Origin: a virus
DNA length: 40,194 nucleotides
Strand: one strand, 5' to 3'
Virus record (IMG/VR): IMGVR_UViG_3300027659_000077
Coordinates: 1 to 40,194 of that record
The translations under genes were made by a program, and so were the position numbers. Under the pieces are notes generated by a model, which saw only the letters and a list, made by a program, of their open reading frames with translations, was not told the DNA's origin and made no database searches. The number at the start of each line of letters is the position of its first letter. Position 1 is the stretch's first letter. Positions 4,568 through 38,053 of this stretch are shown here, one piece after another.

Positions 4568-6513
4568 TATTTTTGTCCTTTAGTATATTCTTGTAAAATG
4601 CTTTTAGAAGCTGCAAGCAAGTTTTGAATTTTTGCGTCGATTCTTTTAGTCGCAGCAGGATCTTTTGATCCTATTTTTATTTTTTCACCTTCAAGCGCAG
4701 CCGCTGCGTCTCGATTTCCAGACATAACCGCATCAACTTCATCTTTTGTTGGAGTTGTATCAAAATCTGCGGCGATAGGTTCCCACCTCAATCCGCGAGA
4801 AATTGCTGCATCCTTGTAAAATGGAATAGCTTCGCGATTTGCTGCTTTTTTCGACAACAGAGTAAGTTTGCTTGCCATCCTTTTCATAGAATTTTCATCT
4901 GCTTCTGTAAGGATTTTTCCAAGCCCACCTTTATCTTTTAAAAATTCAGGACTGTACTTTGCAAAGAATGCTTGCGACGAACGAATCAGTTCTACATCGC
5001 CCTCCCTAACAGCAACGCCTTCGTCAATCATTTTTTGGAATGCGTTAATTGCAGCTATGTCACCGAATCCATTGTGATCTTCTAATCCTGCTTCTACTGC
5101 GGTCTTTTTTTTGCTTAACTCGCGTGCGCTTGCGTACATTGGATCTGCTACCAATGCTTTCCTCAAAGATAAATTGTAATCACCTTGTTCTTTGTCGTAT
5201 GGTGGGCGAGGAAGATTTAACTCTTTTTGTTTTTGAAGATCAGCTTCGCTCAATGGGTCTCTTTTTACTTCCCAGACGCCTTTTATTGGCCTTCCAGCCA
5301 TTTGTGAAGCAACAGGATTTATGACGTCTTTGTGGTATTCAATTTTACCTTTCGATTGATATCCATCGTATGCTCGCAAAGCCTCGGATTCCGCCTCTTC
5401 AGGAGTGTTGATAAACCCGCTGCGCGGAGCTTTTCTTGCTTGAGCAACTGGAGCAACTGGAGCAGGAGCGGTTGTTGCCGAAGCAGGACGTGACGCCATC
5501 TGCGTAGACGGAAAATTCATTTCAGCAAGACCTTGAGACGGCGCAACGCTTGTTGGAACGATGACTGGTGACGTTACCGATCTTTTTTTCTCAACAGTAG
5601 TAAATGGGATCCCTTCTGGGATAACATTGAAAACGTCCGATCGTGGATCAAAATTTAAATCAAATGCAGGAGCCTTTAAAGGGATTTCAGCAGGCGGAGT
5701 TATTCCTGCGCCTGTTGATGCCATCAAGTATTTTGGATCAATATTTGATAAATCGTAAACCTGTTGCTGCGTTTCAACTTTTGGAGCGTTATTTATGTTT
5801 GCAAATATGTTTTCTGCAAAAATGCTAGGTTTGAAATCCCTGCTATAAGCCGGATTGTCAAATGAGTCTGGCTTTATTTGACTAAGCGGATTTTGGTTTA
5901 ATGCATTTGAAAACTCATCTAATTGATCTTTAACTTCAGGAGCAAATAACGAAGGGGAGGTTTCAGGCGCTGGGTCTCCTGTTGGCAAATCTGCATTTTG
6001 ACCATTAACAACAGGCTGGCTTGATGACTCTTCACTTTTATTTTTAAAAAACGAACTAGCGTCACCCAAAACTGAGTCAATTCTGTCTTGCTTATCTTGA
6101 TTCAATTTGTCAATCCTTAAATTGCGCTCATCAATTCCCAACAAGCGCAACGGATCATTTTGTCTTTCTTCAATAAGCGCCCGTTTTTCTTCAAGTTTTT
6201 CCGCTAACTCAGCTAGGCGGAGTTCTTTTTTTAAAGCAAGCTCTTCTTTTTTTACTTCTACAGCATCTTTTTTGTTGTACCCTTCAAGCACAAGTGCTGA
6301 AGCCGCCATTACCCCCTTTTCAATCCCCTGAGCAACCAATTCAGGATGCGCGTTAGGAATCTGCCAAGCAGGAAGCGGTTTGAACGAAATTGGACTCTGC
6401 ATGCCGCCTGTAAACGACAACGGCTTTAGGTCAGCCAGAGTCTGGCTGTTGTCTAATTTAGGCAACGCTGGAGCAAAACCAAAGCCCCCTGTTTGTAGGG
6501 ATAGCGATGGCAT
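4567..6513 (-). CDS. Coiled-coil internal virion / ejection-type protein (648 aa)
   Basis: No firm family is recognised. The N-terminal 70 residues include KPLSFTGG and HPELVAQGIEKGV (56-68), both nearly repeated in the 122-aa protein at 7770-8138. Residues 80-118 form a strongly charged Lys/Glu heptad-like coiled coil. The middle (about 170-370) is Pro/Asn/Ala-rich and low complexity. The C-terminal 250 residues are mainly helical and contain AINAFQKMIDEGVAVREGD, a pattern I recall from long phage virion proteins. The ORF ends by overlapping the start of the giant protein by one base and starts 3 nt after the preceding gene, so all are probably co-translated. An internal virion or ejectosome component is inferred from position and composition. 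Confidence 0.75.
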   Translation of the reverse strand: MPSLSLQTGGFGFAPALPKLDNSQTLADLKPLSFTGGMQSPISFKPLPAWQIPNAHPELVAQGIEKGVMAASALVLEGYNKKDAVEVKKEELALKKELRLAELAEKLEEKRALIEERQNDPLRLLGIDERNLRIDKLNQDKQDRIDSVLGDASSFFKNKSEESSSQPVVNGQNADLPTGDPAPETSPSLFAPEVKDQLDEFSNALNQNPLSQIKPDSFDNPAYSRDFKPSIFAENIFANINNAPKVETQQQVYDLSNIDPKYLMASTGAGITPPAEIPLKAPAFDLNFDPRSDVFNVIPEGIPFTTVEKKRSVTSPVIVPTSVAPSQGLAEMNFPSTQMASRPASATTAPAPVAPVAQARKAPRSGFINTPEEAESEALRAYDGYQSKGKIEYHKDVINPVASQMAGRPIKGVWEVKRDPLSEADLQKQKELNLPRPPYDKEQGDYNLSLRKALVADPMYASARELSKKKTAVEAGLEDHNGFGDIAAINAFQKMIDEGVAVREGDVELIRSSQAFFAKYSPEFLKDKGGLGKILTEADENSMKRMASKLTLLSKKAANREAIPFYKDAAISRGLRWEPIAADFDTTPTKDEVDAVMSGNRDAAAALEGEKIKIGSKDPAATKRIDAKIQNLLAASKSILQEYTKGQK

Positions 6514-6516
6514 ATA

Positions 6517-7263
6517 TTAAACCCCGCCAAACGTGATATTAGAAGTGTTTGGAAGCTGGAATGCGTTTCGGCCTGAGCCTGTTTTATTGGTTTCTTGCGC
6601 TTGCGCATACGCTCCTGCTCCAACTTTCTTTTCTTGGGATGGCCCACCATATCCCGCTCCGCCTGAAGAACCCATTTGTTGGCGCATTGCAGCAACAGGA
6701 TTGAATCCGCCGCCGCCTACGGCTTGCCGTGCTGATTGATCCATTTGAGACCCAGCTTCACCCATTTGAATTGGGTTAGTTTCAGTCGCAGATTTGTTCA
6801 TTTGAGCAACCTGAGACTGAGCATTAATCTGTCCTAGTCTCCCTTGCTCTTGAGCTTTTCCAAGAGCCTTATTATAATCTTGGATATTACCAGCTTTTAT
6901 TGCCCCTGCTCTGCCTGCCTCCGCTTTGTCCAATGCTGCTTTGTCTTCTGCTGCTTTTTTAGCCGCTGCATCAGCCGCTGCTTTTTTAGCTGCATCAGCC
7001 GCTGTTGTGTCTGTAGGCGTTGAGGGTTTTGGATCTGTAGGCGTTAAAGGTTTTGGATCTGTAGGCGTTTTTGGCTTACTTAAATTTGCCATATAAGCGT
7101 CATACCCCATCCCATAATTATTATCATATAATCTCTTTAACTCAGCACTCCTTGAAGGCGTTGCTGCGTTATGATAATCTGCATATGCTTTATTTGCTTG
7201 TTCTTCCCATATTCTTTTTGGATCGTTTCGATAAGCAAAAAAATCTTCATTTCCAGTAGCCAT
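6517..7263 (-). CDS. Ala/Gly/Gln-rich virion-associated protein, 248 aa
   Basis: The start is set at the ATG at 7263 (MATGNEDFF), not the longer upstream form. It has GGAGG eight bases upstream and follows the previous stop as TAA-T-ATG. Residues 60-80 carry a threefold PTDPKP repeat, then an Ala/Lys-rich helix (AADAAKKAAADAAAKKAA). The C-terminus is Gly/Gln/Ser-rich and ends ITFGGV. GGGGFNPVAAMRQQ and the final TFGG match the neighbouring 166-aa protein (GGGGIFDLVAARQQQ and TFGGN), so the two look like diverged duplicates. The function is unknown. Composition and position between nozzle and giant protein suggest a small internal virion protein. Confidence 0.7.
   Translation of the reverse strand: MATGNEDFFAYRNDPKRIWEEQANKAYADYHNAATPSRSAELKRLYDNNYGMGYDAYMANLSKPKTPTDPKPLTPTDPKPSTPTDTTAADAAKKAAADAAAKKAAEDKAALDKAEAGRAGAIKAGNIQDYNKALGKAQEQGRLGQINAQSQVAQMNKSATETNPIQMGEAGSQMDQSARQAVGGGGFNPVAAMRQQMGSSGGAGYGGPSQEKKVGAGAYAQAQETNKTGSGRNAFQLPNTSNITFGGV
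7010..7069 (-). repeat. 24-bp in-frame tandem repeat, about 2.5 copies
   Basis: On the plus strand the core tctgtaggcgtt occurs at 7010, 7034 and 7058, exactly 24 bases apart, with the intervening bases almost identical. It encodes the TPTDPKP repeats of the 248-aa protein. The repeat keeps the frame, so copy-number change would only lengthen a Pro/Thr linker. Confidence 0.85.
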
Positions 7264-7264
7264 A

Positions 7265-7765
7265 TTAGTTTCCTCCGAATGTTGTTTGCGGTTGAATTGA
7301 TCCAGAAGCGGATGCAACCTTGTTTAAAAGATTTGTAGTAACTGGATTTACTGGATTTTCTTGTAAATTCGCTTGTGTTTTAGGCAAATATGCTGATGCA
7401 GACCCAAGGTTTTCTGCTTGTTGTTGTCTTGCTGCAACCAAGTCGAAAATTCCGCCTCCGCCTGTTGCTGCATTCGCTCCAGACATTGCTTGTTGATAAG
7501 CCAGTTGCTTAATCGAATCGTCCTTAGCCGTCTGGTATTGATTCATCTTTTGCAATTCTTGCATTGCATTTTGAGAACCCACCTGACCCGCTTGTTGAGC
7601 GGCTTGCATTTGAGTATTATAAATCATCTGCTCCTGCGCTTTTTTGGCTTCTTCTTGAACTCTTTTTTGTTCCGCCAATTGTTGCGCCATTAAATCGACT
7701 TGTCGCGTTTCGTTAGCAATTTCAGCAGATGATTTTTGGTAAGGTTTAGGTGATGATCCGCCCAT
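7265..7765 (-). CDS. MGGS-start Gln-rich virion-associated protein, 166 aa
   Basis: The protein starts MGGSSPKPYQKSS, continues as a Gln/Ala-rich helix (about residues 20-100) and ends in a Gly-rich stretch followed by TTFGGN. The N-terminal MGGS plus Lys/Pro pattern is shared with three other small proteins here. I know similar Gly-start N-termini from internal proteins of podoviruses. Its GGGG...VAA.RQQ block and TFGG end mark it as a paralogue of the next gene downstream. The start ATG sits in CTAATAATATGGG and has no Shine-Dalgarno. The function is unknown; an internal core or ejection role is inferred. Confidence 0.7.
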   Translation of the reverse strand: MGGSSPKPYQKSSAEIANETRQVDLMAQQLAEQKRVQEEAKKAQEQMIYNTQMQAAQQAGQVGSQNAMQELQKMNQYQTAKDDSIKQLAYQQAMSGANAATGGGGIFDLVAARQQQAENLGSASAYLPKTQANLQENPVNPVTTNLLNKVASASGSIQPQTTFGGN

Positions 7766-12915: not shown

Positions 12916-15900
12916 CTAAAACATTACCGGATCAGTGTCATCGCCGTATGTAATGTTATTTATTTGCGGCGGACTCATTGCATGCCCTTCCATGCTTTCA
13001 TGTTGATTTCTCAAATAATTGATAGAAATCGACCAATATTTTTGAGCCTGTTCCATGAAATCTTTATCTTCCAAATCACAGGCATGAACGGCTGCAATAA
13101 TTGCCCTTTCGTTTTCAAGAGGGATATAATCGTATACGCTAGTTATTGTTGGGTGAGAAACGCGATAAATAATTCTAGCCCAAGCGCATTGTTTTCCAAT
13201 CCTAATCCGGCGATACTTTGGATTAGTTTCGGTTGGGTGGTACTGCCCAACGAGAGCCATATCATTGCTTCTTCCGTAGTCTAAAGCATAAAGGCTGACA
13301 TATCCAAGAGTCTCTGGTTTTTCAATGTGCAAAATACTTTTTACAAGTATCGGAGGAAGTATAGAATCAGAAAAGAATGTGCTGTTTTCTGAGTCGCCTG
13401 AAGTTAAGTATTCAATTCTTCCTGTTATTGATTGAACAGCCAAAGCATGCGACCTAGTGTCGTAAAGTTCTAGGGAATTTGAGTCTATTGGGCGAGCGTA
13501 ATAGTATTGAGGCATTGCCATCGTGCTTTGAACAAGTGGATTTGGCAAATTATCATTTAAATTCGGCCTAACTGTCACTTGTTCGCCTATTTCAAAAATA
13601 GAAGAATTACAAAGTATTCTTGTTGATAAAATAGGAGAAAAATTCCTAACAATATTTATGCTCATTTGACCAATTGGCAATGTCGGAATTCCTGCATTTA
13701 CAAACGAAATAGGATTTCCAGACATATCTTTTACAGATACATTATTTCCGGAAATTGATATAATGTAGTCAACTCCAGCGGACAATGGGTATGGTATGTT
13801 TCCTGTAGACGAAAACTGAACAGTCATGCCTTCAGTCAAAAATTCAACATTTGATAATCTAATTAAATCATTATACGCTAAAACATAAGACGGCATTCGT
13901 ATTCCAAAATACGATTGACCTGATCCTATTGTTGTTATGTTAATTAATCCGGTAATAGATGGAGATGCTGTCGCGTTTGCCAAAGAATTGAAAAGCTGCA
14001 CTGTAGAATTATCAACTTTTCTGGCGTAATATTTTGTTGTATTATTAACTCCTGTCGGAAGTAAATAATCTGATGCCAAATACATTGGTTGACCAGTTAA
14101 AATCCCTGAAAAATCCCCTGCCCAATTACTGTTAAAAGAAACTCCAAACGGACGAGACAAAACAACGTAAAAATTTCCTGTTGACGCGCTTGTCAATGTA
14201 ACTGGACTGAAATCAGCATTAACAACAGTAAAATTGCCAGTTATTTTGTTTAACGGCGCTTCAGCCCTGTATGCCGTTCCAGCAACAAGAGGAGATGGAA
14301 GCGTACCAGTTGAACTAAATTCAACAAAAACGCCTGTAGATGGCGTTATAGTTACAACAGGCTTGCTTGTATATCCAGTTCCTTGAGTAACTACAGTTAC
14401 AGTGGTTACATTTCCAGCGTATGAAGTAATATTAGCGCCTGACGCAGCGCTCGGAGTTGCAACCGGAACGCTATAATTGAATTTAAAAGGGTCAAGAACA
14501 GTAGCAACCATCGTTCCCGATGCTGTGGTTGCAGTTATTGATGATAATGTTTGATATGTAAAATTATTGTTGTCAACTACTGTGATGGATGCATTTGTAA
14601 CATTATACATTGTTGCATTTGTTACTCCAGAAATAGTCACAAGTTGTCCTGTTTGCCACCCATGACTTGTAAGAACGCAACTTGCCGTTGTTGTTCCAAT
14701 CGTTCCCACCAATTGCAACGCAGGAATTGATCTGTTTAATGGCGGAAGCGTAATTGCTATCGTTTGATTGTATCCAGAAGACAAGGCGTCTGCCCCGCTT
14801 ATTTGAACAGTTTGGTTGTTTGAATACCCGTGTCCTGTCGTAATAATACAAGTGGCAACCCCCCCTGTCTGCGTTAAATTTGTTGCTATAATTTTATTAA
14901 CAATAGAATTGATTGTAGCGTTAGCCGTTGCGCCAGTTCCGCCTCCGCCTGTTATTTTAACTTGTGGAGGTTGAGTATAGCCAAACCCGCCGCTAGTTCT
15001 TGTAAATGAAGAAAGAAAAGATGTTTGAATTGTGCAAGTTGCGGTTGCATTTGTTCCTCCAGTAGGAGCCGCGCCAATAATCACACTTGGAGCAGATGTA
15101 TACCCAAGACCAGCAGAAGTGATTACAATTGAAGCAACCTGAAATGTCGTTGATCCGGCAGCGTCAGGAGCCATTACAGCATATCCTGTAGCAGGATAGG
15201 TTGTTTGACCTGATCCAACTGGAGCGTCAGGTGGACTTGAGAAAGTTACGTTAGGAGTTGAGGTGTATTTAGTTCCTCCAGCACCAATTGTTACTCCAAT
15301 AACTGAACCAACAACATTTGCGTTAAAAGCAGCGCCATTACCTGAAGGTGCATCAATATTTAATCCAGATGCAGTTATTTGACTTACTCCGCCAGTTGTT
15401 GACGTTGCCGAAAGAAGTTTTACAATTGAATTAACGCCCGTTCCATCATCTGTTAAAATGATTGGATTGATCAAAATCCCATACGAAGAAGAAACCGCAT
15501 CTTGAAGGGTTGTATGAACAGAAATTGTAAATGTATCAATTACATTTGCAAAATAGTTCTGACCCGCAATAAGCGGAGTTGGCAAAGTTCCTCCGGCGGT
15601 AAATGCCTGAACTTGATCTCCGGTTGAAAAATAATGAGGTATTGCAAAAGCAAAAAGCGTCTGAGCGGCTATGTTTTTGCGAATGTCTGTATTGAACGCT
15701 CCGCTGCGCCCACTGCATAAAATCTGATTTGTCCTGTTTTGCGCGTCTAACAGTGTTGGGTATACGGCAATATTATAAGAATCAATCGGCTGACCAAAAT
15801 ATGTTGTGTTGAAAGCAAGCGGAGTTGGAAGAGCGCCATCTGCTGCCGAAATAACAACAGTAGGAACAGACGTGTATCCACTACCTCCAATTAACCCAGT

Positions 15901-22074: not shown

Positions 22075-24573
22075 TTAAGACATTGCCTCCTGACAAATTA
22101 AATGTGCGCCCACGTTAGCTCCGACTGCAAAAGAACTGTCTCCTAAAATTGTTGGACTTGTTACTCCTAAAGGATGACTTACAACAACATCAAGAGAATC
22201 GTTTACTTGCAATACAGGATATGTTCCATTTAATGATGTTGGAGTAAATGAAGAAAAAGTAATTTGATCTCCTACACTTAACCCATGCGCTTCGCGGTAA
22301 CTTACAATAGAAAAAGTAGCAAAAACATTTATAAGTCCGGTAGTTGATGCTGCGTTACTCGTTGTAACATAAACAAGATTTGGAGACGCAACAGTATCCG
22401 TAAATATTTTTGTTATTTTTGTTCCAGAAACCCAAGTGGTTCCTGACGAAATGTTCATTCCAACGATCAGTCCTGCTGCCGCTGCTGGAGTTAATGTAAA
22501 AACAAATAAACCAGTAGTTGTCGTTGCTGCAAAAATTAATGATTTGCAATTTATTGAGCTTGTTTGACCTCCGGCAACATTTGTTGCTCTTGTTGATACT
22601 GCAAGAGTCAGAATATCAGGGGATGATCCTGATATTGAGTTAAAAAGTGGGAAGAAATCTGTTAAATCAATGTTTTGTAGTCCAACTCCTCCGTTTGGAG
22701 TTGTTTGAGCATACACAACTTCTCCTGAAGTGCTAATTAATGCCGTAGAATCAACGTCTCTTGTTGCAAACGAATTTGCAGAACCAAGTTGCGCCAACGG
22801 CTGAAAATCCGATCCTGTAAGAACCGGAGGATTGTCTGGCGCTGTTGCGATCAACTCAACAATGCAAAGCGCATCAGAACTAACTACAAGTGATTTTGGA
22901 AGAAGTTGACCCCTGTTTACTTGCCCAATAACAAAATATTGATTTGTGTATGCAGTGGACGAAGTCAGCACTGTTGTATTTGCTGGATTATTTAAAAGGA
23001 CTGTAGTCGCATTTATAATTTCAACTATTTTTGTCGATTGTGGCAAATATATTGATGAAATTAATGCTCCGACAGTAAATGTTCCTGCGCCAACTTTAAT
23101 AATTGGAGATCCGGCAGTAAATGTAGTAACAGTAACGGCGCTTCCAAGATTGGGAGCAATAGTCAATGCTTTCGTTGATTCAATATATTGACCATCACAA
23201 AAATTTATTGTTGTTGATCCGCTGGACGTTATTTTACCAACATAATATTTCAAATCTGTTCCTAAATAGTAAACTGATCGCCCGACCCATTGATTTGTGT
23301 CCCAAACAACACCAGTTGAACTAATTTTCCCGTAAGGGAAGCTTGGTATTGTTGAATTTGTAATTGTAATTGAAGATGGAGAAACGTATGTGTAGGCATA
23401 TGTTGCGTTTGAAACCCCAGTCCACCCTGTCAAGACAACGCTATTTCCTGAAGCAACAGGCAACCCATGCTGCTTTTTAAAAGTAATTGTAGAAGTTGAT
23501 CCCACAACTGTAAAAGTTTGCACCGGAGGCAAAAAGTAAGCTGTGTTTGCTACTTGAAGTTGTGTTGTTGTAGCCGCTTGAATCGTCGCTTGAGCAACTG
23601 CTGGCCCACCGATATTAGAAAACTCTTGCGTTCCCATTGTTCTCGCTTGGATCGAAAGAACTGGAAACCGAGTTGCATTTGGAGTAATATATCTCCGAGG
23701 AACCGCCGAGTTCATTCCATAAGAATATGTGAATCCCCGCTGTTCGTCGTATTCGCCCTCTACAATGACTGAAACTCCATAATGATACATTGTAGCCGCT
23801 GCCGCACTAGTGCTTGTATTTCTTTGCTCGTAGCGCACAGGAAGGTTGCCTGTGCGAGACCAAGGAGAAACGCCTGCTGCGGTTCCAATAACGCCTCCGC
23901 CATAAACTGAATTATTTCCTGCGCCAATTTCATGCAGAATAAATGGCTCGCCATTGATTAAAAGACCCCACCTCAAGCATCCAGCGCCATACCAAGCGTA
24001 TTCAAGCCAAAGCATCTGAATTAAATTCCAATCGATTTGATTTTTTATACCATGAGGGTCAGACCAGTTTGTAAAATCAACTTTAACATCTCTAATAGCA
24101 GTTGAGCTTGCGGTTCCGTTTGGATAAAAATTTGAATCACTTCTAATGACACATTTTATTCCAGCCGGATTGCCTGTTGAAGCTGGCCCCTGCTCAAAGA
24201 AAATTCCATTGCTGTCATCAAAGAATCCAACTCGCTGATATTGATCAGATGAAGGCGCTCCAAAATTTACAGCAGTAGCCATAAACATCCCTTTTCCTGG
24301 CTGATAACGATGATAAGGTCTTGATTGTCTTATTGTTAGCGCACTCGGATTGCTTGCTCCAGATGGGATAAACATTGCGCATCCTCCGGCCCCTGCTAGG
24401 TGAGTGATTGCGCCTCCATTTGCAGTGAATTCTTCCCACCGCATTGGCTGTTTTCCATATTCAAAATCAGCGTCATAAATATTTTGATGTTTGCTGATTT
24501 TAAGACGCCCCATCACGTCTTTGAGTCGTTTCGAGTAGTCCTGACGAGATGCGTTAATGGTAGAAAGGCTCAT
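22075..24573 (-). CDS. Large virion structural protein with tail-type beta modules, 832 aa
   Basis: The first 320 residues (KISKHQNIYDADFEYGKQPMR, later YQRVGFFDDSNGIFFEQGP and a WLEYAWYGAGCLRWG block) match a virion protein type I know from marine and freshwater podoviruses and myoviruses, probably located at the tail or particle surface. The rest is Ser/Thr-rich with two copies of a small module: KQHGLPVASGNSVVLTG... and REAHGLSVGDQITFSSF.... This module type also occurs in the 1346-aa tail protein and the SUMF1-like protein. A minor structural or fibre-base protein is inferred. Confidence 0.7.
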   Translation of the reverse strand: MSLSTINASRQDYSKRLKDVMGRLKISKHQNIYDADFEYGKQPMRWEEFTANGGAITHLAGAGGCAMFIPSGASNPSALTIRQSRPYHRYQPGKGMFMATAVNFGAPSSDQYQRVGFFDDSNGIFFEQGPASTGNPAGIKCVIRSDSNFYPNGTASSTAIRDVKVDFTNWSDPHGIKNQIDWNLIQMLWLEYAWYGAGCLRWGLLINGEPFILHEIGAGNNSVYGGGVIGTAAGVSPWSRTGNLPVRYEQRNTSTSAAAATMYHYGVSVIVEGEYDEQRGFTYSYGMNSAVPRRYITPNATRFPVLSIQARTMGTQEFSNIGGPAVAQATIQAATTTQLQVANTAYFLPPVQTFTVVGSTSTITFKKQHGLPVASGNSVVLTGWTGVSNATYAYTYVSPSSITITNSTIPSFPYGKISSTGVVWDTNQWVGRSVYYLGTDLKYYVGKITSSGSTTINFCDGQYIESTKALTIAPNLGSAVTVTTFTAGSPIIKVGAGTFTVGALISSIYLPQSTKIVEIINATTVLLNNPANTTVLTSSTAYTNQYFVIGQVNRGQLLPKSLVVSSDALCIVELIATAPDNPPVLTGSDFQPLAQLGSANSFATRDVDSTALISTSGEVVYAQTTPNGGVGLQNIDLTDFFPLFNSISGSSPDILTLAVSTRATNVAGGQTSSINCKSLIFAATTTTGLFVFTLTPAAAAGLIVGMNISSGTTWVSGTKITKIFTDTVASPNLVYVTTSNAASTTGLINVFATFSIVSYREAHGLSVGDQITFSSFTPTSLNGTYPVLQVNDSLDVVVSHPLGVTSPTILGDSSFAVGANVGAHLICQEAMS

Positions 24574-24617: not shown

Positions 24618-26855
24618 TTACACTGTTGGACGAGTTGTTTTATATGGGTGACCAGCAGGAAGCAAAGAGACTAGATTCCATTTCCAAGCTATGTATCCTT
24701 CCATCTTTTGCCTGTCCGTTGTTGTAAGCGTTGATGAGTAAGAAATCACTTCGCGCACAATGCCATCCCAAGGCGATAAAATCTGACGCAAAGAGCCAAG
24801 AGCGTAGCCTGCAACAGTATTTGCGCTTGCGGAACTAGCAGAAATAAATCCTGTGGAGGTGTACAGTTGCGGAAGAACAACTCTGTTTGTCCCGTCAGCA
24901 GAAACTTGTGTTCCGTTTAAGAAAAATGGGCCAGCAAGAAAAGTGTTGTTTGCAAACGATTGCGATAAGCTTGTTCCAAAAAAGCAATTTCCGTTTCCGC
25001 TTCCGCCATCTATTGCTGCGCCAAATACTGGCATAAATCCGTATGCGCCATTGTAAAAAACATTGCCGCCTTCATATTGACAAACAATGAAAACATTCCT
25101 GTAATCCCGTGTCGTAACTTGATTCGTTGAAAACAATCGTTTTAAACCAGTAAAGCGAATTGCATTCATTCCATTCACTGTAGCAAGAGATGGCTCTTCA
25201 CCAGAATTAGAAATAGCGTGATTTGCTATGCTAGATTTATCGCGCCATTGCGTAACGAGAGATCCGCTTAATGTGAGCGTATTGTTATCTGCTCCATCCA
25301 ACCAAAGATTGATTGTTGCACTTGCGTTTGTGGGACTCCAATAGTTGTTTGGAGCAGCAACTGCATTGCCAAGGGAAGATGGGATAAATGCAGCTTGTTT
25401 AGAGCAAACTACAATCGTGTTGGAGTATGTTATTTGTGCATACGCAAACACATATCCGCTGATGTTAAAGCAAGGAGTTTCTGCACTCCAAGTTCCGTTT
25501 CCATTATTCGTAGTTGTCGCTGTGAGCCATGTCCTGTTTTGCCAGTCTGCTGTTTCAAGAGCATAGTAAATTTGAATCGCTGAAATGTTAGCTGAGTCTG
25601 ATGGGGTAACAGTGACCTTTGGATAGCCAGTATTAGCCCCAGAAGCAACAAGGCTAGAAATAGTATTTGGGCTAGAAGGCCAAGTAGCAATCGTTCCTTT
25701 CAGCTTATGGTCGAACCACAGTTGAATGTTTTGCTCCAGACCAGTAATGTCGTGATTAGCATTTACTCGGAAAGCATAACTTCCAGTTACTGGAGACACT
25801 TCAAAATTGCGGAATCCTCTGTCAAAGTTTCCATGAAAGTCATTTGTGCTTGTTAGCCACAGAACAGGTGCAGTTGAGCTTTTAGAGTAGGATTGCGGCT
25901 CAAGAGTCGTTATGTAATAGTTGTTACCATCTGTGAAAGTTGGCTCAACATAAGGCAAAGCATACGGAAATACATCAAAAGTCTTCCAATAATGGATCCA
26001 TCCATTGCCATAGACCGCAATGACGGCTTTAATGTCTGGCTCAATAGACATATTATAAGCAACTTGACCCCCCCAAGAATTGCCCCAGAATCCAATTTTA
26101 GTAATATCAATATCTGTTGTTAAAGATTTGACATACGCCAATACCCTTCTTGGCATTGCAAACCAGTAGTACATATCCTGATTGCGAACATCAGCTATAG
26201 TTGCAATAGACGCTTGACTGGTGTAATTTGCATTAGGATTAACGTATTGGTTTAACCTATTTAATTCTGTTGGATAAACAGTCATTAAATTGGTTGGATA
26301 CGGAGCGATTGTTCCGCCAAATGTTCCGCGCCAGTCGTATTGGATGACGGCATACCCAAGATTTGCGTAGCTAGTATAATCAGCAACACTTGAACCCCAT
26401 CCACCAGAAAAAATAAAACATGGAAGGTTTCCCGCTCCACGCAAAGAAGACTTTACTTGGTATTTAACGTAAATACGGATCGTTGACCCGTTAATCGGCA
26501 TGTCAATAAATGAGTTTTGCGTAAAAACACCATTTAAAGTTGCTGATGAAATTATAAATTCGTTAAATGCGCCAGTTGTTGGGTTATAGTTGTTATATTT
26601 TGACCCAACTCTCCAAATAGAAAGAACATCAGGAACTATTTCAGAATTTGTATCTGCACGATACCAAGTTCCGTTTTTTGGGTAAATTAAACTTTGATTA
26701 TTTACACCTTGTTTTCCAAATCCAGTTGCATTTGGGCTATATGATGGAGTTCCATCATTTACGCCTGTAGGAAGATCGTTTACAGACGCATTTAATACTT
26801 GTTGTCCTTGGACAAAATCTATTTTTCCAGATAATGGATTTAACCTAAATGGCAT
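24618..26855 (-). CDS. Virion fibre with alpha/beta-hydrolase (esterase) and LamG-like C-terminal domain, 745 aa
   Basis: The N-terminus MPFRLNPLSGKIDF resembles that of the collagen-like fibre and is probably a virion docking peptide. Residues about 100-390 form an alpha/beta hydrolase of acetyl-xylan-esterase or S9-like type. The nucleophile elbow GNSWGG has S260, with D339 (TSTNDFHG) and H368 (NANHDITG) in the expected order for a triad. Residues about 520-745 (NLWLDGADNNTLTLSG... YIAWKWNLVSLLPAGHPYK) look like a LamG-type carbohydrate-binding domain. A tail-bound deacetylase or esterase acting on host surface polysaccharide is the natural reading; the substrate is unknown. Its start overlaps the end of the 54-aa gene by 11 bases. 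Confidence 0.8.
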   Translation of the reverse strand: MPFRLNPLSGKIDFVQGQQVLNASVNDLPTGVNDGTPSYSPNATGFGKQGVNNQSLIYPKNGTWYRADTNSEIVPDVLSIWRVGSKYNNYNPTTGAFNEFIISSATLNGVFTQNSFIDMPINGSTIRIYVKYQVKSSLRGAGNLPCFIFSGGWGSSVADYTSYANLGYAVIQYDWRGTFGGTIAPYPTNLMTVYPTELNRLNQYVNPNANYTSQASIATIADVRNQDMYYWFAMPRRVLAYVKSLTTDIDITKIGFWGNSWGGQVAYNMSIEPDIKAVIAVYGNGWIHYWKTFDVFPYALPYVEPTFTDGNNYYITTLEPQSYSKSSTAPVLWLTSTNDFHGNFDRGFRNFEVSPVTGSYAFRVNANHDITGLEQNIQLWFDHKLKGTIATWPSSPNTISSLVASGANTGYPKVTVTPSDSANISAIQIYYALETADWQNRTWLTATTTNNGNGTWSAETPCFNISGYVFAYAQITYSNTIVVCSKQAAFIPSSLGNAVAAPNNYWSPTNASATINLWLDGADNNTLTLSGSLVTQWRDKSSIANHAISNSGEEPSLATVNGMNAIRFTGLKRLFSTNQVTTRDYRNVFIVCQYEGGNVFYNGAYGFMPVFGAAIDGGSGNGNCFFGTSLSQSFANNTFLAGPFFLNGTQVSADGTNRVVLPQLYTSTGFISASSASANTVAGYALGSLRQILSPWDGIVREVISYSSTLTTTDRQKMEGYIAWKWNLVSLLPAGHPYKTTRPTV

Positions 26856-29475: not shown

Positions 29476-30678
29476 TTAGCAAGCAGTAGGAGCGCCAGCA
29501 AATGCGCAACGCTTGAACAGAACGGGGCATACGTTCTGTGGACGAATCGGTTGAATTGCCCTAGAGATTTGGTAAATATGCTGACCAAAATCTCCGTATA
29601 GGTTGCAATCATTATCACGGAAATATGTCCATTCAAGCTCACCCATAGCAAGTTGCGGAGCGAAACGGAATGTTCCTTCGCCAACGTAACTTTCTGGGAC
29701 GAGACGCTTGAAAGAATCGCCAGCGATAACGAATCCAATTTCAATATCTGCTGCCACCCAAGCTGGATTGCGGCGTTGCGCAAAGCCATTGGTAACAGCG
29801 GACGAGATGATTGGATTGATTAGTTTGACGTTTCCGTTGCTGTCAAAAAGATCAGTAGAAAGCGCACGGAGAGGCTGTTGGTCGATGCCAAAAGCGAAGC
29901 CACGATAGCCTTGGAACTGATAACCTTGAATGCTCTCTTCGCCGAGCTTGAAAGAACCAGCCGTGAGGTAGTTCAAATCTTCTTTTACGTCAGCGTCATT
30001 GCGGATGCTTTCGATGGCATCAGCAGAGAGCATGACTTGGAAGAACTCGCCTTGTTTGTTCGCAAATGGCTCTGCAAGCATTTCCTCGCGGAGGAAAGTG
30101 CCAATGCGATAGAGCGTAGCGAAGTTAAGAGGCGCGTCAGGCACAACTTGAGCAAACTTGGTGTTAATTTGCTGCATGTCGCCAGTAAGATTGCTTGTGA
30201 AAGCCGTTGTGGACTTCACAACATACTTAACGCCAGATTGAATCAAGAACTGATAGCGAATATCAGCATTGATCAACTGTAGGATAGTTTTCTCAAGCGA
30301 AACTTGCGCTTGGAGATAACTTCCTTTGAACGCCGTCCTAGCTTGCTTTACGCAAACGCGAGGGCCAGCGCCACGCAGGGTTTGGAGCGAAAACTGATAC
30401 TCAGTCGAACCGACTTGATCAGGATTTGCACCAACTCCACATAGAGTTGTGTCATCAGCGAAGACAGGCGATGCAAGCGAAGCCGCTGGCACTGCCATTT
30501 CCTCAACAACGGAGCGCACAACGTCCGAAACATTCGGAAGAGTGCCGCCATCGATGCTGTTGATGTATGGTGATTTGCGAGCCAGAACTTTAGCGATCTG
30601 GCCGATGATGCGATTAACATCTTTGGATGCGAAATTTTGAATTGTCGCAAGTGGAATACAGTTATTAGTATTAGACAT
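29476..30678 (-). CDS. Major capsid protein (HK97-type, inferred), 400 aa
   Basis: The size, the position after portal and scaffold, and the composition fit a podovirus major capsid protein. Its body contains an N-terminal helix region (VNRIIGQIAKVLARKSPYI), a long middle helix (YLQAQVSLEKTILQLINADIRYQFL) and late beta segments (GTFRFAPQLAMGELEW). It has seven cysteines, four in the last 50 residues including the final one, which is unusual and might support cross-linking. A strong hairpin follows. The start is AAAATTATGTC with no Shine-Dalgarno. The fold is not shown by sequence alone. Confidence 0.8.
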   Translation of the reverse strand: MSNTNNCIPLATIQNFASKDVNRIIGQIAKVLARKSPYINSIDGGTLPNVSDVVRSVVEEMAVPAASLASPVFADDTTLCGVGANPDQVGSTEYQFSLQTLRGAGPRVCVKQARTAFKGSYLQAQVSLEKTILQLINADIRYQFLIQSGVKYVVKSTTAFTSNLTGDMQQINTKFAQVVPDAPLNFATLYRIGTFLREEMLAEPFANKQGEFFQVMLSADAIESIRNDADVKEDLNYLTAGSFKLGEESIQGYQFQGYRGFAFGIDQQPLRALSTDLFDSNGNVKLINPIISSAVTNGFAQRRNPAWVAADIEIGFVIAGDSFKRLVPESYVGEGTFRFAPQLAMGELEWTYFRDNDCNLYGDFGQHIYQISRAIQPIRPQNVCPVLFKRCAFAGAPTAC

Positions 30679-30709: not shown

Positions 30710-31696
30710 TTAAGGGTTTTGACCAAGGCGTAAGCCAAAGCCAGCTTCACGAATATCGGGTCTGCGGTAGCCGCGATTGAGAACAGAGCAGGATTCAGGG
30801 CTAACTAGCCATGCACCACCTCGCACTCGACGCGCATTAAGCGAAACAGCGTCATCGAAACACCATTCAAATACGTTTCCGCTCATATCATAGAGAGAAA
30901 GCTCATTTGCGGTTTTTGTTCCGATTGCAACGGCTTCACTCGCATTGCTCCTCGACCAAGCCACAGTATTAGCAGTATTGCTGCCGGAATATGTGTACTG
31001 ATGCGTTGAAGCGCCACCAATCGCTGCCCACTCCCACTCGATTTCCGTTAGAAGGCGGAAGCCAGTGTTCGCAGAAACTACCGAAGGAACGATTTCACCA
31101 GTTTTATATGGGATCGAAGCTACGATTGCGGTTGTGGTTGTAGCTGGAGTGACAGTTGCGTTAGAAACAGTGTAAGTGAACGTATTATAATTCACAACTG
31201 TAACAGCGGCACTGGTCAGATTGTATCCAGATTGAGTTGCTCCTGCAACAGTAACAATATCGCCTGTAACCAGCGTGTGCGGGTTTGTGGTGACTGCTGT
31301 TGCAATTGTGGTATTGCGCGTGATGCTGGTGACTGGTGTTGTCGTTTGATAAACAGGAGTGAGTCCGCCTGTCAGAGCAGTTTTTGCGTTACACCATTTT
31401 AGAGCATCATACCAATTCACCTCTTCAACAGGAGATGTTGCGGCGTTGCCAGAAGGCTCCGACGAAATATCATACCCATTTGCGAGAGCATAGGTTTTTA
31501 CTGTGATCCACTCCGCGCTGGAAACTTCTTTTGTGCCGATTTTAAAAGTCGATACAACTTGGTTTCCAAACGAAGTCCAACTCGGCAGTGTTCCGCCAGT
31601 GATGGAGACCATAGTCGTTGTTTGTGACCATGCTTCTGCACCAAATAGGGACAATGCTGCGATTCCGACTAAAAGGAATTTTGTGATTGATTCCAT
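30710..31696 (-). CDS. Secreted SUMF1/FGE-fold protein with inserted phage-tail module, 328 aa
   Basis: The start at ATG 31696 gives a signal peptide (MESITKFLLVGIAALSLFGA, cut near AWSQ). The formylglycine-generating-enzyme (C-type-lectin-related) fold is clear from MVSITGGTLP, TKEVSSAEW, PVEEVNWYDALKWCNAK, GFRLLTEIEWEWAA, ELSLYDMSGNVFEWCFD, RRVRGGAW and FGLRL. A block of about 60 residues (about 122-178; TLVTGDIVTVAG... VTVVNYNTFTYTV) interrupts the usual loop between TPVYQT and YKTGEIVPSV and matches a module of the 1346-aa tail protein. Only one Cys lies where active FGE has its Cys pair, so catalysis is doubtful. A surface-display, adhesin or lectin role is more likely. The fold also hosts diversity-generating variable regions in other phages, but no such element is visible here. 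Confidence 0.85.
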   Translation of the reverse strand: MESITKFLLVGIAALSLFGAEAWSQTTTMVSITGGTLPSWTSFGNQVVSTFKIGTKEVSSAEWITVKTYALANGYDISSEPSGNAATSPVEEVNWYDALKWCNAKTALTGGLTPVYQTTTPVTSITRNTTIATAVTTNPHTLVTGDIVTVAGATQSGYNLTSAAVTVVNYNTFTYTVSNATVTPATTTTAIVASIPYKTGEIVPSVVSANTGFRLLTEIEWEWAAIGGASTHQYTYSGSNTANTVAWSRSNASEAVAIGTKTANELSLYDMSGNVFEWCFDDAVSLNARRVRGGAWLVSPESCSVLNRGYRRPDIREAGFGLRLGQNP

Positions 31697-31752: not shown

Positions 31753-31816
31753 AGCGACAACCTAGAGGCTGAAGACAATCGTTGCAGATTGAATTCGTAT
31801 TGGTTTTGTTGTCGCT
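31753..31816 (-). promoter_or_regulatory. Nested inverted repeats in the SUMF1-like gene leader
   Basis: The 234 bases between 31697 and 31930 are the longest untranslated gap in the window. They hold a 9-bp inverted repeat, AGCGACAAC (31753-31761) with GTTGTCGCT (31808-31816), enclosing CAATC / GATTG (31776-31780, 31787-31791) around a 6-base loop. Another hairpin, CTTGC / GCAAG, is at 31883-31899. I see no clear promoter or U-tract. A structured 5' leader or regulatory RNA is possible; chance pairing cannot be excluded. Confidence 0.4.
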
Positions 31817-31930
31817 TTCCGGCACGTTGAAAGCTATTTTTTCGGCCTGATTAGAAGTTTTTTTTGGCTACTTCCAGAGCCACTTGCATACGGAGCAAGC
31901 ACACCGAGTTGAGAGTCTTTTAAAACAAAC

Positions 31931-32632
31931 TTAATCTATCGTCAAGTGTTTTTTAAATTTTCTTTTCTTTTTTTCAGGAGCAGGAATTTCCTCTGTTTTT
32001 GGTTTTTGAGCCTCTGCTTTTTCAATTTTTGGTTCAGGAATATCAACTTCAATTTTCCCGTCTATGATCCGTTGCATTAACTCGGATCTTTTGATATCCG
32101 ATGATTTAACGTGGTGAACTTTTTCTAAAATATCACCTAGTTTTGACGTCTTCAAAATATCGAATTCTTTTAACAACATGTTCCCCTCGCAGATCGGTTC
32201 TTGAATAAAAATCTTAATTACATTTTCAGCGTGTTCTTTGCTTGCATAAAACAAATACGCCATAGCGTCATGATTAACATAAAGAGTATCGTTTTTGACT
32301 TTATCTTCAGCGTCTTTTGGTTTGAAGAATTTATTGACAACATCGTAATCGACCATCCACCCACCTCCGGCGGCATGGAGAGCGCACCAACGGACGTAGC
32401 GAGCAACGATCCAGTCAAACCTGACGAGCAAATCTGATGGCAATGTTTTAGCAACAGACATTAGTTTTTGCTGTAACTTGTTGTACATCGTGCTGCATTG
32501 AGAATGGCTTCGGTTGAGCATTTGGCAATTCCATCCGTTAGCTTCCCAACTGCGCTTCCATTCATTTGCGCAAGAAAACTCTTCGTTTTGATTAGATTGA
32601 GAAATGCTCTGATAGTATGAGTAAATAATCAT
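31931..32632 (-). CDS. Glycosyltransferase, GT32/DXD-sugar type, 233 aa
   Basis: The start at ATG 32632 follows the preceding stop as TAA-T-ATG. Residues 71-98 (RFDWIVARYVRWCALHAAGG, then GWMVDYDVV) carry the pattern of the DXD sugar-binding glycosyltransferases: an acidic-Arg helix, a Gly-rich turn, and D-Y-D at 95-97. The N-terminus IIYSYYQS fits the first strand. The C-terminal 50 residues are a Pro/Lys/Glu linker ending in basic KKKRKFKKH. With the adjacent GT-A gene it forms a pair inserted between scaffold and capsid. The target is unknown; virion proteins are the obvious candidates. Confidence 0.78.
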   Translation of the reverse strand: MIIYSYYQSISQSNQNEEFSCANEWKRSWEANGWNCQMLNRSHSQCSTMYNKLQQKLMSVAKTLPSDLLVRFDWIVARYVRWCALHAAGGGWMVDYDVVNKFFKPKDAEDKVKNDTLYVNHDAMAYLFYASKEHAENVIKIFIQEPICEGNMLLKEFDILKTSKLGDILEKVHHVKSSDIKRSELMQRIIDGKIEVDIPEPKIEKAEAQKPKTEEIPAPEKKKRKFKKHLTID

Positions 32633-32633
32633 A

Positions 32634-33614
32634 TTAGTATGTTTTGTATCCAACGTGAAATACTGGCGTTCCTAAGTCAATGTTAGCACTGTGACCAGAT
32701 TCTTTTGCTCTTTTGCAAAATGCAGCGTCCCCACCTCCAACACTGTCAAATGGGCGGAAATAATCGTAGTCGTAATTCGGAGAGTTTACTTTTAAAGAGT
32801 CTCCGTATTTTTCTTTAATGCTTTGAAAAACTTTTCTGTGGACAAGCATGCAACCGCTCCCGACCCAATCAACTTCAACGATTGCGTCTTCATATTCTTT
32901 TGCTCTTTCAGCAAGAGATTGATTACTGCACATTAAAAAAGACTTTTCTTGCCGACCGAAATACGCTCCGCCTATCAATGTTTTACCTGAACCAATGAGC
33001 CGATGTAGAATATGTCGCTGCAATGGCACGTCACCAATGTTTTGAGCGGAATGAACCCACGATCTCATCCAATGCGGTCTTCCGATACATGGAATAATGT
33101 CTGAATCAATAAACCAAAGCCACTTTGCGTCAGTCTGGAGGAATTTATTGATCAGGCGATTCTTTCCATGTTCAGAATCTCCAATACTCATGTCCTGACG
33201 CAGTTTGTCGCGCCCGAAATCTTGCCCCAAACTGAAACAAACAGCCGCTGTTACTGGGTTTGTTGATCTATACCAAGGCCAAGCCATAAAAATATCTCGT
33301 CCTGAAAACTCGCAACGATAACTCGGCATTCCTTCCTGTGAGCGTGATTCAATTATTGTGTCTTCTTTTGTTTCTTCAACAATGTCTGAACTTTTAATTT
33401 CAGGAATCTTGCTTAAAACCTCATCAACTTGCGGCTTTGCCTCTGGTTTTGGTTCTGAGGGCGCTGGCGGCTGTTTAGGAGCATTAACAGGCATGCTAGG
33501 AATAACCTTTCCATCTGCTGTCATTGCGGGAGGAATAGGAGTATGGAATGGATTTGGAGAATCCATCGCTCCAAGCGTGACCGCTTCCATTCTGGATATT
33601 TTTATTGTAGCCAT
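32634..33614 (-). CDS. GT-A-fold glycosyltransferase with Pro-rich N-terminal extension, 326 aa
   Basis: Residues 1-95 are Pro/Glu-rich and probably flexible (PPAPSEPKPEAKPQVDEV). The catalytic part has WLWFIDSDIIP (D-S-D at 170-172, nucleotide-sugar/metal binding), VDWVGSGCMLVHRKVF, and a C-terminal GGGDAAFCKRAKESGH... FHVG acidic/His segment typical of GT2-like phage glycosyltransferases. CCGGAGAATAAAA precedes the ATG, one of the few Shine-Dalgarno-like sites here. The neighbouring downstream gene is a second glycosyltransferase. Confidence 0.8.
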   Translation of the reverse strand: MATIKISRMEAVTLGAMDSPNPFHTPIPPAMTADGKVIPSMPVNAPKQPPAPSEPKPEAKPQVDEVLSKIPEIKSSDIVEETKEDTIIESRSQEGMPSYRCEFSGRDIFMAWPWYRSTNPVTAAVCFSLGQDFGRDKLRQDMSIGDSEHGKNRLINKFLQTDAKWLWFIDSDIIPCIGRPHWMRSWVHSAQNIGDVPLQRHILHRLIGSGKTLIGGAYFGRQEKSFLMCSNQSLAERAKEYEDAIVEVDWVGSGCMLVHRKVFQSIKEKYGDSLKVNSPNYDYDYFRPFDSVGGGDAAFCKRAKESGHSANIDLGTPVFHVGYKTY

Positions 33615-35659: not shown

Positions 35660-38053
35660 TTAATTTGCTGTTGATGGTCGAGGAGGAGCCGCTGCGTTTC
35701 CTATCACCGACGATTGATTGGGTGTTTGTGAAGTGTAATTTTCTTGAAGCATTTTTTCTCTCGCAACACTTGGAGGTCTTCCTCCACCCATTGCTGCCGG
35801 AGCTACATTTGGGTCTGGAGGTTGAACCTGACCATTTGTTAAATGCTTGTTGGCTTCCATCATTGCCATTTTGTATTTCTGGACAACTTCTTTTGGCGCA
35901 CCTTTAGCTTCTGCCGCCCCAACGTGACCAGCGAAATGTTTCAAAGCCGCCGTCAATGACCCTGCCGCTTCAGGAGGCAATGCCCCCTTGGGAACATTCA
36001 TAATAACAGGCATTAGCTTTTGCATCATTGTTTCGAGATGCACAATGTCGTTATCGCGAGGCGACACAGGAATATCCTGACCAGCAATAATGCTTTGCAA
36101 TTCTATGACTTGTTGCCGAGTTGCCTCGATAGCAAGTGCTTCAACCTGATCTTTCGGAAGGATAACTGCGTTTGCCGTTGTTTCTCCAAGTTTTCGCACC
36201 CAATCCAATTTGATAAGTTCGTCTTGATTGATGTTAGGATTGCCCGTGTAGCGAGCAATCAATGTATCAAGGATCACGTTGTCCTGTGGCGTTGTGTCCT
36301 GCATCAACTGGCTGGCAGGAGAGAATGCCATGATCATAATGTCAGATGGCGGAATATTTCTCATCATCATGTTAAGGCAGCAAGCAACAGCATCCTCATC
36401 TAAGTGCGGAGGAAGGTCGAAAGGCACAAGGAACGTAGGCAATGGAATGTCACTCTGCTCAAAAGCATCGACTATTTCTTTCCTTGCCCATGTTGCGTTC
36501 GGGTTCTGCTGGCGTTGAAGTTCCAACAACATCATCAAATCTGACGCCGCTTTGATATTTTCAGGATGGCAAATGCCCCGCTGCATTCTTTGGACAGCAA
36601 GAGAAAATTGTCGAGCGAAGCGAGTCAGAACGCCTTCGCGCAACTGGTTCTCGATGGCGGCAACTCGGTTGACTTCAGATGCCGTCTTGCTTCCTCCTGA
36701 ATTTACAGGAGGCGAAGGCAAAAATGTCCCAACCTGAATCTCAGCTAATCCGCTAACAAATTGATCGAGCCGCAAGAAATCCTCTACATCCGCTGGCAAC
36801 TGCTGTGGCACAACTTCAAACCCTTCCGAAACGTAAGCCACAGGATGGGCTACTGTGAGCGGAGGAACGCCAACCTTGGCATTCGGCCCCTTCTTCAGCA
36901 GAAGCATTCCTTTCAAGTAGGTGTTGTCGATAACAAGGTTTCGCGCTTTATCTACGGCAACGTGCGTGTTGTAAAGATCGCGTCCTGCCCCACGGCTCGA
37001 CATAAGGTTGCCGCTACCAATCTCGACAGAGAACAACGCAATGCAATCGCTCATGTTATTGTATCGATCAACCTGAGTGCAAATCTCCTTGCCGGATTTA
37101 TCGTCAAACAAAAATCGGCTGATCTTCCCGTGCGGTTCGCGAACAAGAATCTCTCCAAGCTCGACATATTTTGCATCGTTTTCAAAACTCGCTCCGTAAG
37201 ATCCCTCTCTTACCCAATCCTCGACCCTGCGAGCGTCATCGTCAGCGTCAAGCGTCCTTCCTGCCGGAACTGCATTGTTTATCGAATCTACAAGGTTTTT
37301 GATATGCCATCCGGCGGAAGCTGAAATCTCAGGGTCTTCAAGCACTGGCAACAACTCGGCAATCTGATAACGTCTTTTCCTTGCCCAGATTGGAGTTTGA
37401 TCTGCTTGTTGAGGCGTTTCGATGGAGAAGAACGTGTAGTCTTGCCGCAAGAACTCAGGCTTCCAATCGCGAGTGTCATCCCAACACAAACCGCAAAAAC
37501 CAAAGGTAGTATTTTCATGCACAACTTGGGCTACAGTGTCATCAAATCCGCTCCAGCCGCGAATGCACTTGGTTATTTCTTGTCTAAAAACATCTGTTTT
37601 ATGTTCTGAATCAATGCTTTCTATTGGATACTTTGTAAATGTAAGCGTTGCCGATTGCTCGATAACTTGCCTAAATGGAGGCTCGATTCTTGCGCACATT
37701 GTTGACAAGAACCCTGTCGGTCGATTGCTGCGCCAGTTCTGCCCCATCGACTCCAACTTCTTGTTGCTGTAAGGAGGCTCAAGATTAAGTTTTTTCTGGA
37801 TCAACTGGTTCTTGCGATTCCTCTCGACGTTCTGTTGTTTAAGACGGCGATACGCAGAATGCGCTTGGGCAGCATCTTTGAATGTTCTGCGAACCTGAAG
37901 CGTCTCAGGATTGACAGTGTCTGCCGTCCCAATATCAGGATCAACAACATCCAAATTCAATGTGCGAGGTTTATCGTTAGTGTCTGCTACGCGAGCAGAT
38001 CTGTTAACGTATGCGTTTGAAATTCGTGGATCGAGAGGCTTGAGAGTTGCCAT
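35660..38053 (-). CDS. Portal protein, 797 aa
   Basis: Its length, gene order (before scaffold and capsid) and segments such as MCARIEPPFRQVIEQSATLTF, DTVAQVVHENTTFGFCGLCW, VDKARNLVIDNTYLKGMLLL and GGSKTASEVNRVAAIENQL are those of podovirus head-tail connectors of the 700-800-aa class. It would form the dodecameric DNA channel at the capsid vertex. The C-terminal 100 residues are Pro/Gln/Asn-rich (QVQPPDPNVAPAAMGGGRPP) and probably extended. The start follows the previous stop as TAA-T-ATG. Confidence 0.88.
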   Translation of the reverse strand: MATLKPLDPRISNAYVNRSARVADTNDKPRTLNLDVVDPDIGTADTVNPETLQVRRTFKDAAQAHSAYRRLKQQNVERNRKNQLIQKKLNLEPPYSNKKLESMGQNWRSNRPTGFLSTMCARIEPPFRQVIEQSATLTFTKYPIESIDSEHKTDVFRQEITKCIRGWSGFDDTVAQVVHENTTFGFCGLCWDDTRDWKPEFLRQDYTFFSIETPQQADQTPIWARKRRYQIAELLPVLEDPEISASAGWHIKNLVDSINNAVPAGRTLDADDDARRVEDWVREGSYGASFENDAKYVELGEILVREPHGKISRFLFDDKSGKEICTQVDRYNNMSDCIALFSVEIGSGNLMSSRGAGRDLYNTHVAVDKARNLVIDNTYLKGMLLLKKGPNAKVGVPPLTVAHPVAYVSEGFEVVPQQLPADVEDFLRLDQFVSGLAEIQVGTFLPSPPVNSGGSKTASEVNRVAAIENQLREGVLTRFARQFSLAVQRMQRGICHPENIKAASDLMMLLELQRQQNPNATWARKEIVDAFEQSDIPLPTFLVPFDLPPHLDEDAVACCLNMMMRNIPPSDIMIMAFSPASQLMQDTTPQDNVILDTLIARYTGNPNINQDELIKLDWVRKLGETTANAVILPKDQVEALAIEATRQQVIELQSIIAGQDIPVSPRDNDIVHLETMMQKLMPVIMNVPKGALPPEAAGSLTAALKHFAGHVGAAEAKGAPKEVVQKYKMAMMEANKHLTNGQVQPPDPNVAPAAMGGGRPPSVAREKMLQENYTSQTPNQSSVIGNAAAPPRPSTAN

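Follow-up and report, generated by a model that had tools for sequence, protein, structure and literature searches.

The window analyzed here, a 40,194-base IMG/VR virus record, carries on its minus strand a 328-aa open reading frame (ATG at 31696, stop at 30710) that encodes a formylglycine-generating enzyme (FGE)/C-type-lectin fold interrupted by a beta-barrel module (Table 1). The sole Pfam match of the protein is to PF03781 (FGE-sulfatase), which covers residues 45-324 with an E-value of 9.3e-21 and a score of 75.1 bits against a gathering cut-off of 23.3. AlphaFold2, supplied with a 53-sequence alignment, modeled the full protein with a mean pLDDT of 92.2 and a pTM of 0.89, and the Foldseek neighbors of this model are TvpA (2y3c), CarF (5aoh) and FGE structures. 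An initial reading made from the letters alone (the sequence-only reading) had assigned the protein to the SUMF1/FGE fold and had described the FGE cysteine pair as not evident, and both points are borne out. The positions of the copper-binding cysteine pair are occupied by Val298 and Cys303, such that the pair is not intact in the window protein, and neither position is a cysteine in the L003, L004, L007 and L010 types. An active formylglycine-generating enzyme was rejected as a candidate because the two active-site cysteines are not both present. No catalytic domain was found in the 328-aa protein, and with its catalytic cysteine pair broken the protein is most likely non-enzymatic.

The FGE fold is interrupted after TPVY116 and picks up again at Y197KTGE. 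The split in this loop had been recognized in the sequence-only reading, but its length had been put at about 60 residues; comparison with L009, a phage homologue free of the insert, gives a net insertion of ~74 aa. In the AlphaFold2 model, residues ~116-196 form a separate all-beta unit of seven strands. A profile derived from the insert matches a 1346-aa virion protein of the window twice, at residues ~692-737 (domain E 1e-7, 25 bits) and 753-815 (domain E 7e-10, 33 bits), compared with a background that never exceeded 7.4 bits when each ORF of the window was shuffled 50 times, in agreement with the earlier suggestion that the pattern recurs in this tail protein. Looser copies had been proposed for an 832-aa virion protein, and these are taken as real because the iterated profile matches that protein twice, at residues ~351-413 (E 6e-12) and ~752-793 (E 6e-11).

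A 41-member profile of the module has a single match in the PDB, to residues 192-258 of the phi92 endosialidase (4hiz; E 6.4e-6). Folded alone, the insert is modeled with modest confidence (pLDDT 78.5), and its top Foldseek matches are the endosialidases 4hiz, 3ju4 and 1v0e (endosialidases fill ranks 1-7) together with the FCCH domain of Uba1, at weak E-values (5e-3 and above; 5e-3 to 1e-2 for the endosialidases), probabilities near 1 for most and TMq values of ~0.5-0.7. In a viral structure library the full model matches many fiber and baseplate proteins over an insert-sized stretch, and the best insert-only matches to phage fiber and baseplate models have an rmsd of 1.5-2.4 over 79-92 columns. 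The insert itself scores below the Pfam gathering thresholds for PF12195 (14.7 bits, cut-off 35) and PF16190 (14.0 bits, cut-off 29.5). Both the family profile and the fold mark the insert as a homologue of the endosialidase beta-barrel/E1_FCCH type, and profiles, AlphaFold2 and Foldseek agree that it matches phage structural modules in alignment as well as in fold.

Table 1. Features of the cassette, its flanks and the related modules. Coordinates refer to the window unless a contig is named.
Feature	Position	Strand	Evidence
Chimeric FGE/C-type-lectin-fold protein ORF, 328 aa	30710..31696	-	translation, Pfam FGE-sulfatase, AlphaFold2
Signal-peptide-like N-terminus, residues 1-24 (MESITKFLLVGIAALSLFGAEAWS)	31625..31696	-	hydropathy, comparison with 19 homologues and 34 window proteins
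FGE/CLec fold, N-terminal half, residues 29-116	31349..31612	-	Pfam, homologue alignment, AlphaFold2
Inserted beta-barrel module, residues 117-196	31109..31348	-	homologue alignment, module profiles, AlphaFold2, Foldseek
FGE/CLec fold, C-terminal half, residues 197-328, Val298 and Cys303 at catalytic Cys positions	30713..31108	-	
Putative major capsid protein gene, 31 nt downstream of cassette	29476..30678	-	size, conservation, position
Conserved structured leader RNA, upstream of cassette	31806..31911	-	comparative RNA analysis
Further leaders	L002 7775-7876; L192 9764-9865; L151 9786-9890; and others		
Variable slot	window 31931-33614; L009 4879-6797; L136 5284-5880; L153 9031-9777		
Homologous module, first copy in 1346-aa virion protein, residues 692-737	14746..14883	-	profiles
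Homologous module, second copy in 1346-aa virion protein, residues 753-815; also PF16190	14512..14700	-	Pfam, profiles
Homologous module in 832-aa virion protein, residues 351-413	23335..23523	-	iterated profile
Homologous module in 832-aa virion protein, residues 752-793	22195..22320	-	iterated profile

A signal peptide had been thought to precede the fold, and the N-terminus of the protein is indeed signal-peptide-like. Its maximum 12-residue hydropathy is 2.66, versus at most 1.41 in the 34 other listed proteins of the window, and a short hydrophobic N-terminus of the Sec-signal type is present in all 20 family members (maximum 12-residue hydropathy of 2.1-2.9). Judging from this hydropathy and its conservation, the protein is probably exported. 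Codon differences between close relatives are mostly synonymous (synonymous versus nonsynonymous, 99 vs 11 for L005/L008, 20 vs 5 for L099/L101 and 19:4 for a further close pair, with L003/L004 left out of the comparison on account of indels). Such ratios indicate that the gene is under purifying selection, and we therefore regard the protein as functional. A diversity-generating retroelement (DGR) was considered and rejected, since no reverse transcriptase (PF00078) was found in 16 carrier or related records, many of them incomplete, and no C-terminal hypervariation was found between close relatives, whose differences are not concentrated toward the C-terminus.

The cassette ends ~30-50 nt from the same downstream gene in every carrier. 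We call this the putative major capsid gene from its size, conservation and position; the relatives that were found with it share ~78-89% identity, and its product has no Pfam or PHROG match. In a capsid-gene tree of related phages, the cassette is present in 19 and absent from 60 of the 79 informative phages, a distribution that needs at least five changes. Close pairs reveal the corresponding empty sites (L002 versus L192/L193, with flanks 91-93% identical; L009 versus L145/L147, 86-93%; L006 versus L177, 90-94%). The chimera gene is an accessory gene of the moron type, a present/absent insertion among otherwise collinear phages, and its absence from the 60 phages indicates that it is dispensable. 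Recognition of the gene as an accessory cassette is new here.

Where the cassette is present, its start codon replaces the capsid start codon behind a common leader, and in relatives that lack the cassette the same leader RNA precedes the capsid gene. For its expression the cassette seems to rely on this leader in place of a promoter and terminator of its own. Compensatory changes across 17 leaders, that of the window among them, preserve two hairpins together with a pseudoknot that pairs the second loop with a downstream strand, and the structure is asserted for P1, P2 and the first pseudoknot only. An independent RNAalifold run with nine sequences found changes on both sides in 11 of 19 pairs. 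An additional pseudoknot (GGC:GCC / GCACC:GGUGC), picked out by eye, is likely. The leader RNA has no match in Rfam and possibly represents a new family of phage leader RNAs. Because the cassette sits behind the structured leader RNA of the capsid gene, its expression is probably late and strong, as that of the capsid gene would be.

Upstream of the leader, between the scaffold-like and capsid genes, lies a variable slot whose glycosyltransferase-like genes and SAM methyltransferases differ among relatives, with Pfam support that is weak for the former and clear for the latter. These genes would fit a surface-modification neighborhood, but modification of the virion could equally be their role. 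Elsewhere in the window, a 745-aa protein (24618-26855, minus strand) combines an alpha/beta-hydrolase-like N-terminal half with a virion-protein C-terminal half (phrog_10356), and its Abhydrolase_6 and Peptidase_S9 matches both fall slightly under the cut-off. The putative capsid gene had 135 metagenomic relatives in one scan, and no relatives of this gene or of the putative portal gene (35660-38053, minus strand) were found among 50,697 deposited phage genomes. A capsid profile likewise had no match in 388 Verrucomicrobiota genomes. The window phage belongs to an uncultured phage group, and with no isolated relative among the 50,697 records there is therefore no published phenotype to borrow.

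The bacterial homologues of the scaffold are mainly from Verrucomicrobiota, and five genomes contain 14-33 FGE-type stretches each (counted as fragments). In an unrooted tree from which the insert columns were left out, all 19 phage sequences group as a single clade (support of 99) among Verrucomicrobiota branches. This placement is consistent with capture of a bacterial-type gene, and transfer of the FGE gene from bacteria to phages is the likely direction. The loop at the insertion site is 14-39 aa long in 74 of 75 bacterial homologues and 92-97 aa long in the phage members. The one outlier, L062 (ORF 5335-7749 from a Chthoniobacteraceae MAG), has a 118-aa insertion in the same loop that we consider unrelated to the barrel module, since the module profile matches no protein on the bacterial contigs examined; the L062 protein suggests that this FGE loop tolerates insertions generally. 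A search of the 388 Verrucomicrobiota genomes, with up to five candidates per genome scored among the matches listed, found no full-length insert-bearing FGE protein, while held-out insert-bearing phages used as a positive control scored 1e-118 to 1e-142 and better. Given the short bacterial loops and the outcome of this search, the idea that the insertion pre-existed in bacteria was rejected.

The barrel module itself is present in six of the 388 genomes, in a prophage-like gene cluster and in large multi-copy proteins, and lies outside any FGE fold in all six loci examined. L201 (262-2925) and L202 encode large proteins of bacteria in which the module occurs in several copies without an FGE context. 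In a tree of the modules, whose deep branches are weakly supported, the FGE inserts cluster together beside modules of the type carried by the 1346-aa protein. L009 lacks the insert and yet is sister to the insert-bearing L002 (support of 98), and because the L009 loop resembles the bacterial form, the insert was more probably lost through recombination or allele replacement than through a simple deletion. Taken together, the loop lengths, the genome search, the scaffold tree and the agreement of the block with phage structural modules support the chimera model of the sequence-only reading, in which a captured bacterial-type FGE gene was rebuilt with a phage module. Of the two outcomes named in that reading as fatal to the model, the same insertion in bacterial homologues and a block unlike the tail module, neither was seen.

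What might such a protein do for the phage? The explanation we prefer, at a probability of about 0.45, is that this accessory gene encodes an exported, non-catalytic lectin-like protein that acts on the envelope or surface of the infected cell, with exclusion as its most likely benefit. Behind the capsid leader, the protein would be produced late and in large amounts, which is the step we hold with most confidence, and it would then be exported through the host Sec pathway, after which the lectin fold and/or the barrel could bind an envelope or extracellular glycan. In the last and least confident step, the surface or periplasm of the infected cell would be altered so that a receptor is masked or incoming tails are blocked (superinfection exclusion). 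Glycan binding at the envelope is suggested by the best relative of the barrel, which binds polysialic acid; the endosialidase beta-barrel is both a polysialic acid site and a hotspot for host discrimination (PMC12632334). Counting against a glycan-binding role, E1-FCCH, another relative of the barrel, does not bind glycans. Superinfection exclusion is perhaps the best guess among several functions possible for an exported late protein, and T4 gp61.3, which is exported to the periplasm and inhibits the tail lysozyme gp5, offers a precedent (PMC7650644). A doubtful further idea is that the protein serves as a self-recognition decoy, in which late, capsid-level export of a captured host-type lectin bearing a virion-type glycan-binding barrel covers receptors. 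Neither superinfecting phages nor released progeny would then be titrated on infected cells or debris, and the cassette would be gained and lost through swapping at the capsid leader.

It is possible, if on balance unlikely, that the protein works in the envelope toward lysis, release or host physiology (e.g., by binding the cell wall or outer membrane) rather than exclusion. Exported lysis factors are common among phages of diderm hosts, and both the export-type N-terminus and the location of the gene in the late structural region would suit such a function, but the protein lacks a recognizable catalytic domain, the gene is dispensable and no adjoining lysis gene was recognized. Somewhat less probable is a virion-associated decoration or adhesion protein whose lectin fold binds glycan while the barrel docks to the particle, in the manner of Hoc-type or tail-associated adhesins. 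The cassette immediately precedes the capsid gene in all carriers, the inserted module recurs in virion proteins of the same genome, and FGE-superfamily proteins elsewhere are phage receptor-binding or DGR target proteins (PMC5883640), all of which speak for a place on the particle. The conserved signal-peptide-like N-terminus, however, predicts export from the cytoplasm, the compartment of particle assembly, and most close relatives lack the gene despite conserved flanking genes. The structural, surface-display protein envisaged in the sequence-only reading is thus not supported.

We consider it highly improbable that the gene is a DGR target encoding a hypervariable receptor-binding protein. 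C-type lectin folds are regular DGR targets (PMC8144416) and the best solved relative, TvpA, is a DGR protein, but the 16 carrier and related records, many of them fragments, yielded no reverse transcriptase, and the close-pair differences are mostly synonymous without enrichment at the C-terminus. Least probable of all is a genuine formylglycine-generating or EgtB-like enzyme that carries an additional domain; membership in PF03781 would accommodate it, but Val298 and Cys303 stand at the cysteine-pair positions, the four types named above have neither cysteine, and the nearest folds are TvpA and CarF rather than FGE enzymes.

The chimera suggests that phages captured a host-type secreted fold and later fitted it with a module from their own structural proteins. 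The position behind the capsid leader RNA points to a slot in which a captured gene would be expressed at the level of the capsid gene, and if superinfection exclusion, the benefit favored here, proves to be true, the cassette would represent a new route by which phages convert a tail-type module into a surface factor that is exported. The insert-free homologue and the cassette-less genomes provide natural controls for the chimera.

Among the papers searched, no publication describing this architecture was found. The FGE part has the same scaffold as Treponema denticola TvpA (2y3c), which is its best PDB match by sequence (9e-17) and fold (1.1e-16). Unlike the chimera, TvpA is a cellular DGR target without a beta-barrel insert, and unlike TvpA, the chimera was found with neither a reverse transcriptase nor hypervariation. 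Microcystis phages also encode FGE/C-type-lectin-fold proteins (LMM01 A0A7F1; phrog_18508, annotated 'kinase'), which rank first in BFVD (E 1e-12), although tblastn matches to them are confined to the C-terminal FGE-fold part and leave the insert unmatched. As an exported phage protein implicated in superinfection exclusion, T4 Spackle gp61.3 resembles the chimera by functional analogy only, and its fold is unrelated. The barrel shares its fold with E1_FCCH (PF16190), the first catalytic cysteine half-domain of ubiquitin E1 (TMq ~0.7), and PF16190 scores 29.0 bits on the copy in the 1346-aa protein, slightly under the 29.5 cut-off; E1_FCCH is a eukaryotic enzyme domain with no functional link to the chimera. 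By profile (E 6e-6) as well as by fold, the beta-barrel of the phi92 and K1F endosialidases (4hiz, 3ju4, 1v0e; PF12195) belongs to the same module type, and it too is an insertion in another domain, a beta-propeller. The endosialidase barrel, however, is carried by a virion tailspike enzyme, whereas the carrier of the barrel in the chimera is probably an exported, non-catalytic lectin fold.
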